A stretch of DNA of 64,000 nt, taken from positions 1 to 64,000 of the forward strand of contig NZ_QDFI01000015.1 of assembly GCF_003254465.1 (NCBI RefSeq), written 5' to 3'. A program made the position numbers and the translations under genes. Of the stretch, positions 16,166 to 60,381 are shown piece by piece. How positions within the stretch are numbered: position 1 is the stretch's first letter; each line of letters begins with the position of its first letter. The notes beneath the pieces are model-generated. The model did no database searches and was not told the origin of the DNA. It worked only from the letters and a program-made list of their open reading frames with translations. This DNA is from Meridianimarinicoccus zhengii. Lineage in GTDB: Bacteria; Pseudomonadota; Alphaproteobacteria; Rhodobacterales; Rhodobacteraceae.

Positions 16166-16414
16166 ATGCGCAAGCTTTGGGCGATTCTGTGTGTCGTCGG
16201 CTTCACGGCCTTCTGGACGTACGGGTTCATCGCGCTGTCCGGCGTTCTGGGGGAGCGACCGACCCACGCGATGACCTTCGTGCTGTGTCTTGCGGGGCTT
16301 GGTGCGGGATTGGCGGGCTGGTTCCAGGTGATGCGTTCGGCCCCCTCCATGCATCGACGGCGCGCTGCGGCGCGTTCCCGGCTTGAAGAGGAATATCTTC
16401 AAAGCGCGGGGTGA
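16166..16414 (+). CDS. Small membrane protein, unknown function
   Basis: An 82-residue protein with two hydrophobic segments (about residues 4-27 and 36-55) and a basic C-terminal tail (HRRRAAARSRLEEEYLQ), a typical small inner-membrane protein. AAGGGGAA lies eight bases before the ATG. Not recognised as a named family. Near its 3' end an imperfect inverted repeat (16381-16405) could act as a terminator for transcripts from either side. Confidence 0.65.
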   Translation: MRKLWAILCVVGFTAFWTYGFIALSGVLGERPTHAMTFVLCLAGLGAGLAGWFQVMRSAPSMHRRRAAARSRLEEEYLQSAG

Positions 16415-16420
16415 GCCGCT

Positions 16421-16438
16421 CACGCAGGGAGGAGCGTG
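16421..16438 (-). ncRNA. Anti-SD hairpin 4 of array
   Basis: A 5-base stem (CACGC with GCGTG) encloses an 8-base loop TCCTCCCT on the minus strand. It lies about 150 bases from the other three and next to the short palindrome GTGAGCCGCTCAC (16411-16423). Confidence 0.5.
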
Positions 16439-16590
16439 TTGCGGACATCATGTCGTTGGCATGGGGGTGCGGGCCGGTATCGCCGGGGCCACCGTCAATA
16501 GCAGGGGGGCTTTCGGCATCGCCGGGAGCCCCTTTGCGTATCTGGCCATGTGACCGGGCGCTGCCTTTCCGGTATCGGGCGAAGGAAAAC

Positions 16591-16626
16591 GGCGACACCG
16601 CGTGAGGGAGGAGGAGCGGTGCCGCC
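16591..16626 (-). ncRNA. Anti-SD hairpin 3 of array
   Basis: A stem of 6 plus 4 base pairs with one mismatch (core CACCGC with GCGGTG) encloses a 14-base loop containing TCCTCCTCCC on the minus strand. It has the longest stem of the four. Confidence 0.6.
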
Positions 16627-16638
16627 GTTGATCGCGCA

Positions 16639-16662
16639 TGACCCAGGGAGGAGGAGGGGCCA
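16639..16662 (-). ncRNA. Anti-SD hairpin 2 of array
   Basis: A 6-base stem including one G-U pair encloses a loop reading CTCCTCCTCCCT on the minus strand. It lies 16 bases after the preceding hairpin, so the two could form one two-hairpin RNA. Confidence 0.55.
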
Positions 16663-16678
16663 GCGGCAATCCTTCGAG

Positions 16679-16702
16679 GCAGGGAGGGAGGAGGAACCCT
16701 GC
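16679..16702 (-). ncRNA. Anti-SD hairpin 1 of array
   Basis: A perfect 6-base stem (GCAGGG with CCCTGC) encloses a 12-base loop reading TTCCTCCTCCCT on the minus strand. Confidence 0.6.
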
Positions 16703-16928
16703 TCGTGAAACGTACATAGGCCGCCATGCCGCAGATGCAAAGTGCGTGGCGCAACAATGCTGCATTGCACTGTCTGCATGACTTTCCGCAGTGCAGCAAG
16801 TGCCCGATCTGGTGAATATGATCTGGTGATGCGGCGTGATACGCCATGTGAAGGATGATAGGGCATATCAGGGGGCCGGTGCGGCCCGGAGGAGCCCGGA
16901 GGCCAACTGGACAGGATTGGGACATGCG
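16703..16928. other. Non-coding stretch between the anti-SD hairpins and the PAS gene
   Basis: No convincing gene on either strand. It contains an inverted repeat GCACTG/CAGTGC (16767-16772 and 16789-16794) that could be the 5' structure of a minus-strand RNA. It must also hold the promoter of the plus-strand PAS gene. Further GGAGG repeats occur at 16888-16903 but lack the full hairpin-loop arrangement. Confidence 0.4.
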
Positions 16929-17825
16929 ATGGCAAGCGACATGACGACCCCGCCGGCCAGAGCCGCGATCAACGCTGTCGAATCGCTGGCCGCGACTCTG
17001 GCACAGGGCCGGTCCGATGCGGCGGGTGCCCTTTTCGCGGCGCATGGCGCCCCGTCGCCGATGATCGTGTGGCGCCCGACACTGGCCGATGCCCGCCACC
17101 CGATCCTGCGCAGCTTCCTGCGCGGCTGCGGGGAAGACGGCGGGCCGCTGCCCTTGTCCTGGCTCGATAGTGAGGAATTCGCGGCGCTGGCGGATTGGGC
17201 GATGGTCGTGGCCCCGGTCGGTAACGACGGCGACGATTATGTCTATCGCCATTACGGCACCAAGATTGCCGAGGTCTACCAGACCGATCTGACCGGGCAG
17301 CGCACGTCGTCCATCGGGGGGCATGTCGCGCTGTTCTTCACGGCGCTCTATAACGCGGTATCGATGCGGCGCGAATCGGCCCTGAGCGTCCACGAGCCGC
17401 CAAGGCAGGTCTTCGTGCGGGCGTGGCGGCGCGTGATCCAGCCGCTGATGGATGATGACGGGCGCATCGTCTGCCATGCCGTCGCCAATGTTCCCGACAA
17501 CGATCTGCGCGCAGGGCTGGAAGTTCTGCCCCATGCGGTGATGGTCGTCACGGCAGGCGGGGAAGTTTGCTACGCCAATCGTGCGGCCTGCCTGCTGTTC
17601 GGCCAGTCGCGCAGCCCGCTGGCAGGGATGGGGATCGGCGCCTTTACGGGGCTGGACGTGCGGTTGCCGGAAAGCCCGGACCGACTGATCCTCGATGGGC
17701 GCCCGCATGAGGATCGGGCCCTCATGGCCCGCGGCGGGATTGTCGTGCCGATCCGGCTGACCGTCGGCGCCACGTTCTACAGGGACCTGCCGCTCTATGT
17801 CGTGTCGGCCCGCGAGGATCTCTGA
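16929..17825 (+). CDS. PAS domain-containing protein, likely sensory
   Basis: A 298-residue cytoplasmic protein with no transmembrane segment. The middle (about residues 50-160) resembles the PAS_5-type domain of alphaproteobacterial sensors (HPILRSFLRGCGEDGG, YRHYGTKIAEVYQTDLTGQR). A second PAS-like segment follows (LEVLPHAVMVVTAGGEVCYA, CLLFGQSR). No kinase, cyclase, HTH or methyl-accepting domain is attached, so it must signal through a partner or bind a ligand alone. GGATTGGG upstream supports the start at 16929. It lies alone beside the anti-SD hairpin array. Confidence 0.72.
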   Translation: MASDMTTPPARAAINAVESLAATLAQGRSDAAGALFAAHGAPSPMIVWRPTLADARHPILRSFLRGCGEDGGPLPLSWLDSEEFAALADWAMVVAPVGNDGDDYVYRHYGTKIAEVYQTDLTGQRTSSIGGHVALFFTALYNAVSMRRESALSVHEPPRQVFVRAWRRVIQPLMDDDGRIVCHAVANVPDNDLRAGLEVLPHAVMVVTAGGEVCYANRAACLLFGQSRSPLAGMGIGAFTGLDVRLPESPDRLILDGRPHEDRALMARGGIVVPIRLTVGATFYRDLPLYVVSAREDL

Positions 17826-59075: not shown

Positions 59076-59653
59076 AGCGGGTTGTCCTTGTCAACGGCGT
59101 CCCCGCCAGCGGCAAATCGGCCCTTGCGGCGCGGCTTCTGCCGTATCTTCACGCGGAAGGGTTGGCGGCGGTGCCCTTCGCGCTCGATACCGTGAAGGAG
59201 GCGCTGTTCGATCATGTCGGCACCGGGGACCGCGACCACAACCGGATGCTGGGGCGCGCGAGCTATCAGGCGATCTTCGACACGATCGCGGCCTTTCCCG
59301 ATGATCTGGTCCCGGTGATCGACGCATGGCACGGTTTCCAGCCGGACACGGTCCTGCGCGACCATCTTGCCCGCGCCGGGGTCGCGCGCGTGATCGAGCT
59401 GTGGTGCGACATTCCACCGGAAACCGCCGCCGTACGGTATCGCGCCCGCAGCGCCGTGCGGCGACCGGGCCATCCCCCGGCATCCTATGCCGACGAATTG
59501 CTGGAGCTTGCCCGGTGCGCTTGCCCCGTGTCGCTTGGCCCGGTGGTGCGGGCGCGCGGCGACGGCCCGCCCGACGACCCTGCACCGCTGCGCGCCGTGG
59601 CCGACCTGTTGCGGACGGGCGGTCCGACGAACCCTGAGGGAGGAGAGATGTGA
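59072..59653 (+). CDS. P-loop AAA_33/zeta-toxin-like kinase domain protein
   Basis: A 193-residue single-domain P-loop protein with VVLVNGVPASGKSALAARLL at the start (Walker A) and DLVPVIDAWHGFQPD in a Walker-B-like position; RYRARSAVRRPGHPP may be the arginine-rich lid. The fold is that of small-molecule kinases such as chloramphenicol phosphotransferase, zeta toxin or gluconate kinase. The GTG start overlaps the ROK stop (GTGA) and the end overlaps the SDR gene. Its presence in a sugar operon suggests a third kinase, with unknown substrate. Confidence 0.75.
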   Translation: MKRVVLVNGVPASGKSALAARLLPYLHAEGLAAVPFALDTVKEALFDHVGTGDRDHNRMLGRASYQAIFDTIAAFPDDLVPVIDAWHGFQPDTVLRDHLARAGVARVIELWCDIPPETAAVRYRARSAVRRPGHPPASYADELLELARCACPVSLGPVVRARGDGPPDDPAPLRAVADLLRTGGPTNPEGGEM

Positions 59654-60381
59654 TGACGGAATTCGACAAGGGCCCGATCCTCGTGACCGGGGCCAGCGGC
59701 GGCATCGGTGCCGCCACGGTGCGCCATCTGGTGCGGGCGGGCGCGCAGGTGATCGCGGCGGGGCGCGACGAAGACAAGCTTGCCGCACTCGCCGCCGAAA
59801 CGGGCTGCACGACACTGGCCTTCGACCTGACGTCCGAGGACAGCGTGCGGGACGCCCTCGGCGATCTCGACCTGTGGGGGGTCGTGAATTGCGGCGGCTG
59901 GGGGGGCGAGATCGCCACGCCCATGGACACCGATATCGACGTCTTCGACAAGGTGATCGCCGTGAACACCCGCGGGGCGCTTCTCGTGACCAAGTACGCA
60001 TCGCGCAGCATGATCCGGCTGGGCCGCGGCGGCGCCATTGTCAACGTGTCGAGCCAGGCCGCGCTCGTCGCGCTGAAGGGGCATATCTGTTACGGCGCGT
60101 CGAAGGCGGCGCTCGACAACATCACCCGTGTCTCGGCGCTGGAACTGGGGCCCCACGGCATCCGCGTGAACGGCGTGCATCCCACGGTCGTGATGACCCC
60201 GATGTCCGCGTGGTACTGGGGCCGCCCCGAGATCGAAGGTCCGTTCCTGTCGCAGATGCCGCTGGGCCGCTGGGCGACCGAGGACGAGATCGCGGCGCCC
60301 ATCGTCTTTCTTCTGGGCGACGGCGCGTCCATGATCACGGGCGTGTCGCTGCCCATCGATGGCGGCTATACCGCCTGCTGA
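59653..60381 (+). CDS. L-xylulose reductase-like SDR
   Basis: A 242-residue SDR with ILVTGASGGIGAATVRHL, catalytic INVSSQ-type block (VNVSSQAALVAL), CYGASKAALDNITRV and GIRVNGVHPTVVMTPM, closing with MITGVSLPIDGGYTAC. The segment from NVSSQ to the C-terminus is strikingly like dicarbonyl/L-xylulose reductase (DCXR), including the PTVVMT and GG-x-x-AC end. The usual NNAG motif reads NCGG. Probably interconverts a ketose and an alditol using NAD(P)H. A GTG at 59650 is an alternative start. Confidence 0.88.
   Translation: MTEFDKGPILVTGASGGIGAATVRHLVRAGAQVIAAGRDEDKLAALAAETGCTTLAFDLTSEDSVRDALGDLDLWGVVNCGGWGGEIATPMDTDIDVFDKVIAVNTRGALLVTKYASRSMIRLGRGGAIVNVSSQAALVALKGHICYGASKAALDNITRVSALELGPHGIRVNGVHPTVVMTPMSAWYWGRPEIEGPFLSQMPLGRWATEDEIAAPIVFLLGDGASMITGVSLPIDGGYTAC

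Follow-up and report, generated by a model that had tools for sequence, protein, structure and literature searches.

In Rhodobacter sphaeroides, one transcript carries both the CcsR RNAs, which are cut out of it, and the coding sequence of CcaF1, a protein that helps process them. A figure legend in the description of this ccaF1-CcsR operon gives it an RpoHI/RpoHII promoter (PMC10253847). In the passages that we cite on Sinorhizobium meliloti, LsrB activates NfeR1, an ar14 RNA, at a TGCA-N6-GCAT site from -72 to -57 (PMC10746234), and the predicted targets of NfeR1 are mostly transport genes (PMC7143759). The stems of the Rhizobiales members of this group are described as so divergent that a covariance model loses its power (PMC3927594). 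Here, we have analysed a 64-kb stretch of Meridianimarinicoccus zhengii DNA (the window, meaning the whole stretch at its full length). By its loops, its fold and its match to a model, one of its loci is a predicted cuckoo-type anti-Shine-Dalgarno RNA, a kind of RNA that is already known. We think it likely that this is a free-standing small-RNA gene standing behind a worn copy of the promoter of DUF1127(ccaF1)-cuckoo operons, the operon having been split in this genome.

The motif CTCCTCCCT occurs five times in the 64-kb window when both strands are counted, where 0.25 copies are expected, and none of 100 shuffles reached five. Four of these copies lie in one array, all on the minus strand (16685-16693, 16645-16653, 16605-16613, and 16426-16434), and all four are predicted within hairpin loops of that strand. 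TCCTCCC by itself is not enriched across the whole window (10 observed, 9.3 expected), and the distinctive features of the array are the clustering of TCCTCCC and its placement in loops, not the overall count. Four hairpins with TCCTCCC in the loop, as found between 16405 and 16720, were reached in none of 2,000 dinucleotide shuffles (shuffle mean, 0.028), and the same is true of the three found between 16579 and 16720 (0/2,000). The parts of the locus, its predicted promoter and its neighbors are as follows.

16941 to 17825, plus strand: PAS-domain gene, the divergent neighbor (Pfam PAS, 26.6 bits; start uncertain, frame open from 16836)
16755 to 16779, minus strand: box 1 of the predicted promoter, ATGCA-N5-TGCA...GCAGCATTG, covered by the profile match
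16726 to 16741, minus strand: box 2, TTTGCATCTGCGGCAT (family form, TTGTGCANNNGCAGCAT), in the same profile match and deviating from the strict pattern
16714 to 16720, minus strand: probable -10 element CCTATGT, read from the sequence, with the predicted RNA start a few bases downstream
16583 to 16711, minus strand: predicted three-hairpin anti-Shine-Dalgarno RNA (Rfam ar14 and CcsR1 below gathering, model R1, fold z -6.07)
16675 to 16705, minus strand: hairpin 1, TCCTCCC in the loop at 16686-16692
16630 to 16671, minus strand: hairpin 2, type A of the two-hairpin unit, TCCTCCC at 16646-16652
16588 to 16629, minus strand: hairpin 3, type B and probable terminator, TCCTCCC at 16606-16612, then a T-rich stretch
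16421 to 16438, minus strand: hairpin 4, 5-bp stem with the loop TCCTCCCT, an outlier excluded from the RNA
16166 to 16414, plus strand: 82-residue open frame on the other side of the array, no Pfam match over the cut-off

The first-pass annotation had described this array as one of four hairpins. The four minus-strand loops stand, but they resolve into a three-hairpin unit and one outlier. The core (16579-16711) folds at -58 kcal/mol, with none of 200 shuffles equally stable, and each of its three hairpins holds CCUCCUCCC unpaired in the loop, which is the shape of ar14 RNAs. With at least two hairpins, an anti-Shine-Dalgarno motif in the loop and unrelated stems, it is also built like the cuckoo kind. 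A scan of 16380-16960 gave a sole terminator-like site, at hairpin 3 on the minus strand, and hairpins 1 to 3 (16588-16705) are modeled as one compact RNA ending in this stem, with a predicted length of about 130 nt from about 16711 to 16583. Since hairpin 4 follows the terminator-like stem at a distance of about 150 nt, pairs over only 5 bp and falls outside the matches to Rfam and to our own model R1 (see below), we set it apart as an outlier or relic. Its tail (16405-16580) produced a single TCCTCCC-loop hairpin in 1 of 2,000 dinucleotide shuffles, and the fold of this tail is of unremarkable stability (z, -1.17; 27 of 200 shuffles equally stable). With the fourth hairpin isolated in such a tail, we rejected an array of four equal hairpins.

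At gathering thresholds, Rfam reported only two tRNAs in the whole window. With the threshold open, ar14 (RF02344) matched 16586-16711 at 47.0 bits (E 2.8e-7; gathering, 58.8) and CcsR1 (CcsR, RF02791) matched 16584-16671 at 43.4 bits (E 4e-9; gathering, 65.3). The covariance scan proposed in the first-pass annotation thus finds both families by E value and neither by gathering score. The locus is not filed as Rfam ar14 because its score is below gathering, nor as CcsR because, in addition to a score below gathering, the DUF1127 gene is missing. Across 142 genomes of the class, searched with stricter filters, ar14 matched seven including the window's own, none of them above gathering, and a gathering scan of six loci, five from relatives and one from contig 109 of the window's genome, gave no Rfam match.

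Since the stems diverge and covariance models weaken, we built a model of our own, R1, from 33 two-hairpin units of 12 genomes, all of other genera. The training rows were hand-picked from motif pairs, with unit-bridging pairs and some near-identical units dropped. The structure of R1 covers hairpin B alone (10 pairs), so that its covariation figures apply to hairpin B and not to A: both sides change in 9 of the 10 pairs, 97.9% of cells are paired, and the covariation score was reached by none of 500 shuffles. R1 places the window locus in this group (16583-16672, 63.2 bits, E 1.6e-11 over 245,886 bases), together with the contig 109 locus (81.3 bits). At E 1e-5 or better, it matches 233 of 295 genomes of the family, or 221 of 283 without the 12 that supplied training units. 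At two loci, L009 (genome G008) and L014 (genome G031), at least five nearly identical two-hairpin units stand in tandem, which suggests recent duplication of the unit. Spread by plasmids was considered and rejected, the lone match being a weak one to a Paracoccus plasmid that covers 27% of a 212-base query.

The window's genome carries two strong cuckoo loci, the window array (contig 56) and an array of two hairpins and a T-run on contig 109 (17492-17589). A third ar14 match (contig 155; 22.7 bits, E 0.07) is weak. Arrays of the contig 109 type also occur in G003, a genome of the same genus, and in G004, G005, and G006. The PAS protein has a 71% identical relative in Meridianimarinicoccus roseus TG-679, and the PAS gene is accompanied by a divergent array in G003 (contig 42) and G006 (contig 79). 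These two PAS-linked arrays keep the fold and differ in sequence, and hairpin 1 has no counterpart in them. Both genomes have a phenylacetate-CoA ligase-like gene between the array and the PAS gene (mutual identity, 77%), a gene without a match in the 64-kb window. At these loci (L033 and L035), the PAS gene follows the ligase-like gene and lies near branched-chain amino acid transporter-like genes; the names phenylacetate-CoA ligase, receiver domain, MraZ, and branched-chain transporter were given by eye from translations. Around the PAS homologs of G001, G002, and G007, no clear two-hairpin unit was seen in the surrounding 10, 17, and 18 kb (the whole contig for G001). R1 gave nothing at E 1 around the first two and a weak match near the third (21.2 bits, E 0.013). 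In G005, a genome in which no PAS homolog was found, contig 20 carries a second unit. The call of a cuckoo-type RNA made in the first-pass annotation is therefore upheld by the ar14 and CcsR1 matches below gathering, by R1, and by the PAS-linked arrays of two related species.

The absence of a DUF1127 gene near the array, remarked upon in the same annotation, extends to the whole contig. The genome search gave two DUF1127 hits, one on contig 175 and one on contig 158, and none on the window's contig 56, so that the arrangement of CcsR, co-transcribed with such a gene, is not found here. In the first-read loci of 12 other genomes, a DUF1127-like frame of about 71 codons precedes the first hairpin in 11, as judged by eye, the exception being L003. 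Ahead of the DUF1127-like frames stands a family element of two boxes, ATGCA-N5-TGCATRGCRGCATTG and, after 11 to 14 nt, TTGTGCANNNGCAGCAT, followed by a CTAT- or CCAT-like -10; box 2 is readable at all of the 12 first-read loci except L013. A strict pattern drawn up from this element, GCATTGN{11,14}TTGTGCANNNGCAGCA, is present in 148 of the 295 family genomes, in most of them once, with a reversed control of 0 in every row. It is present in 140 of 282 when the 13 genomes seen while it was drawn up (8 of them matching) are set aside. We inspected 30 promoter loci, as selected by the search tool from the matches in the 148 genomes, 28 of them from previously unseen genomes. All 30 have an anti-Shine-Dalgarno hairpin within 1.5 kb downstream, and 29 have two or more. 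The interval between promoter and hairpin holds a DUF1127-like frame, by a loose frame pattern, in 27 loci and lacks it in 3 (L090, L099, and L109), where the first loop is 108 to 176 nt away. Because these three belong to three other genera, the stand-alone layout is not unique to this genus. No publication listed by our literature search names the two-box promoter in its listing, and the promoter may already have been published.

Does the window array have this promoter? The contig 109 locus satisfies the strict pattern; the window locus does not, with too many differences. We therefore give the result of a promoter profile made from the 30 loci, none from this genus, and run on 33 sequences. 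In the window it matches the minus strand at 16783-16723 with 21.1 bits (E 4e-5, above inclusion), a match that ends just short of the predicted RNA and supports the strand assigned to the array in the first-pass annotation. The runner-up in the window or the reversed window scores 5.5. From box 2 to the first TCCTCC there are 30 nt, and the spacing from TTG to CTAT is that of the contig 109 promoter. The contig 109 array itself scores 59.0 bits. Other loci above inclusion are those of G004 (contig 68, 45.3), G006 (contig 103, 41.3), G003 (contig 43, 39.9, and contig 42, 25.8), G061 (35.2, fetched twice), and G005 (contig 1, 26.7), as well as L003 (19.0 bits). The PAS-linked ortholog on contig 79 of G006 falls below inclusion (12.3 bits), and there was no hit at the contig 20 array of G005. 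Weak partial hits also occur elsewhere, for example a short one at L047 of the window's genome, which still scores above inclusion (13.7 bits, E 0.008).

Against TTGTGCANNTGCAGCA, box 2 of the window has more than two mismatches, and single-box hits at two mismatches mean little, since there are 54 TTGTGCANNTGCAGCA sites against 72 in the reversed control. A promoter of the E. coli sigma-70 type was rejected: a scan of 16380-16960 with the consensus TTGACA/TATAAT, which is not the alpha-proteobacterial form, gave no site, and TTTGCA and CTATGT can be read there by eye. An inverted repeat, TTGCTGCACTG...CAGTGCAATGCAGCA (window 16755-16802), overlaps box 1. The microRNA hits that Rfam gives for this repeat are meaningless, and its role may be that of an additional operator or of a pause in transcription. 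The first-pass annotation had suggested that the array might be a differently controlled version. This is not supported, because the promoter of DUF1127-cuckoo operons has a diverged copy immediately upstream of the array; the copy being weak, the strength of the promoter may have changed.

Promoter copies also stand elsewhere in this genome. The DUF1127 gene of contig 175 (L049, minus strand) has its own (about 1555-1490, 36.2 bits), with neither TCCTCCC nor an anti-Shine-Dalgarno hairpin within 1.5 kb after it. On contig 160 (L048, minus strand), a gene for a 70-residue protein with no Pfam family match lies behind another copy of the cuckoo-operon promoter (about 1550-1498, 23.7 bits), with no TCCTCCC in the following 1.5 kb. 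An ancestral operon would thus have split into two RNA loci and a DUF1127 gene, each with a promoter copy, which seems the simplest reading. In the window, the worn DUF1127(ccaF1)-cuckoo promoter would drive a transcript of about 130 nt, with no protein gene between, and this transcript would fold into three hairpins displaying CCUCCUCCC, the last being the probable terminator. The order of these events, like the transcription of the RNA, is something that we infer. Since the two RNA loci and the DUF1127 gene each have a copy of the promoter, the partner protein and the RNA would be co-regulated from separate places instead of being co-transcribed.

The same promoter score can be read in another way. 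The window promoter has 21.1 bits against 59.0 at contig 109, R1 gives 63.2 bits against 81.3, and hairpin 4 is isolated, all of which would suit a worn and silent copy, in which the PAS-linked array is a relic with an eroding promoter and the contig 109 locus does the work. In S. meliloti, only one of six NfeR1 copies was detected under the conditions examined (PMC7143759). Against a relic, the stems and loops of the window array are intact (z, -6.07), the PAS-linked arrays of two other species keep their fold despite differing sequence, and hairpin 1 looks like a gain. We regard a silent copy as unlikely. The position of the array upstream of the plus-strand PAS gene, and the inverted repeat that every hairpin also gives on the plus strand, could indicate instead a leader element of that gene in which GGGAGGAGG is displayed or hidden. 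This was rejected as highly improbable, since the promoter match and the terminator-like stem both indicate the minus strand, the ligase-like gene separates array and PAS gene in G003 and G006, and other genera have the same hairpins with no PAS gene behind them.

By analogy with described systems, LsrB, RpoHI/RpoHII, or PhaR may control this promoter. Box 1 at contig 109 has the form of the LsrB site (ATGCAATTTCTGCAT) and lies at about -71 to -57, counted from the -10; that of the window is nearly so, and the NfeR1 promoter enters this comparison solely through its published motif. The LsrB (VtlR) consensus of Brucella and Agrobacterium, GCAT-N3-TG-N3-T, as given in PMC8844928, was also tried and fits neither box by eye. 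By manual count, the TTG and CTAT of the window are about one base off their positions in the published RpoHI/RpoHII logo (PMC3441632). The TGC...GCA boxes could also place the same RNA under PhaR, a repressor that senses the storage polymer. In the reports cited, PhaR of B. diazoefficiens binds TGCRNYGCASMA (PMC6201568), and in S. meliloti the PhaR motif is known and PhaR represses the RNA MmgR (PMC12542648). The window's genome has a PhaR-type gene and phasin-family hits, with TGCGGTGCAGCA ahead of a phasin-like gene (Pfam score below cut-off). In the copies read, however, the half-sites of box 2 are one base further apart, and box 1 reads TGCATRGC, which breaks the palindrome. The published LsrB site of NfeR1 fits box 1 better (PMC10746234), and the R. 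sphaeroides operon is described, in the legend cited, with its RpoHI/RpoHII promoter (PMC10253847). We dropped PhaR as a first choice because of the extra base in box 2, and control by this repressor seems quite doubtful.

The loops of the predicted RNA are complementary to GGGAGGAGG. They are expected to pair with ribosome sites of the GGGAGGAG type and lower translation, chiefly of uptake systems and sugar genes. The perfectly complementary GGGAGGAG stands 3 to 9 nt ahead of ATG at 20 sites of the genome, against 6 in the reversed control. By Pfam, 8 of these 20 sites stand before transport genes, which encode ABC components (three binding proteins, a permease, and an ATPase), a TRAP binding protein, a BPD_transp_2 permease, and a xanthine/uracil-type permease. 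Further genes led by GGGAGGAG encode an FGGY kinase, a GFO/IDH/MocA oxidoreductase, an RbsD/FucU protein, and a nucleotidyl transferase. One site (L165) precedes a frame with no Pfam hit, scanned only as an 80-residue fragment. Among the control AAAGGAGA sites, 1 of 19 leads into a transport gene (an ABC ATPase), and others lead genes for ribosomal proteins S2 and S16, FliS, a Clp ATPase, and a phage sheath protein. The difference (8/20 versus 1/19) has a one-sided Fisher value of 0.012, in small sets sorted post hoc, of which at least two sites (L147 and L163) seem to lie inside genes, and such operons may have strong ribosome sites for unrelated reasons. The RNA may repress targets and may respond to stress or nutrients. 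Within the window, a short-chain dehydrogenase gene has a perfect GGGAGGAG ribosome site (59638-59655, plus strand), which makes it a candidate target of the RNA.

These observations allow a broader proposal, which we put forward tentatively and with less than even confidence. The two-box promoter, which occurs in half of the genera sampled from the family, could mark a DUF1127-cuckoo regulon. The operon would have been dismantled here, leaving the two RNA loci, the DUF1127 gene and the 70-residue protein of contig 160, each with a promoter copy, as one co-regulated unit dispersed across the genome. A single regulator (of the LysR type, like LsrB, possibly with RpoH) would couple the silencing of sugar uptake to nutrient or stress status, and the RNA would mature without ccaF1 on the same transcript. 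A natural locus with the promoter and a predicted RNA but no ccaF1-type gene makes the role of co-transcription testable, and the family-wide promoter offers a way to search for further loci of this sort and for their regulator.

How does the locus compare with the known systems? With CcsR1-4/ccaF1 of R. sphaeroides (cuckoo RNA, CIN1 locus), as far as the cited description goes (PMC10253847), it shares the conserved anti-Shine-Dalgarno loops and the two-hairpin units, and it shares with the DUF1127-cuckoo operons (27 loci of other genera) the same kind of promoter element. Unlike CcsR1-4, the window RNA has no DUF1127 gene after its promoter or on its contig, and it consists of three hairpins, with a CcsR1 score below gathering. 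AbcR1/AbcR2 of the alpha-rhizobia also have anti-Shine-Dalgarno seeds that silence nutrient-uptake genes, but they are described as a different RNA at a different locus, beside lsrB (PMC8844928). NfeR1 (ar14, S. meliloti) is, in the parts of its description used here, a short, separate RNA of three hairpins, each with CCUCCUCCC, and variable stems, like the window RNA, and both have an upstream TGCA-N6-GCAT-like element, which in the window reads TGCA-N6-GCAA (PMC10746234). The locus differs from ar14/NfeR1 in its score (47.0, below the gathering score of 58.8) and in having no sigma-70 type site by the E. coli-type consensus. The transport bias of the GGGAGGAG sites agrees with the predicted targets of NfeR1 as given in PMC7143759. 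Judged by its shape, short, separate and with three hairpins, the window RNA would work most like NfeR1.
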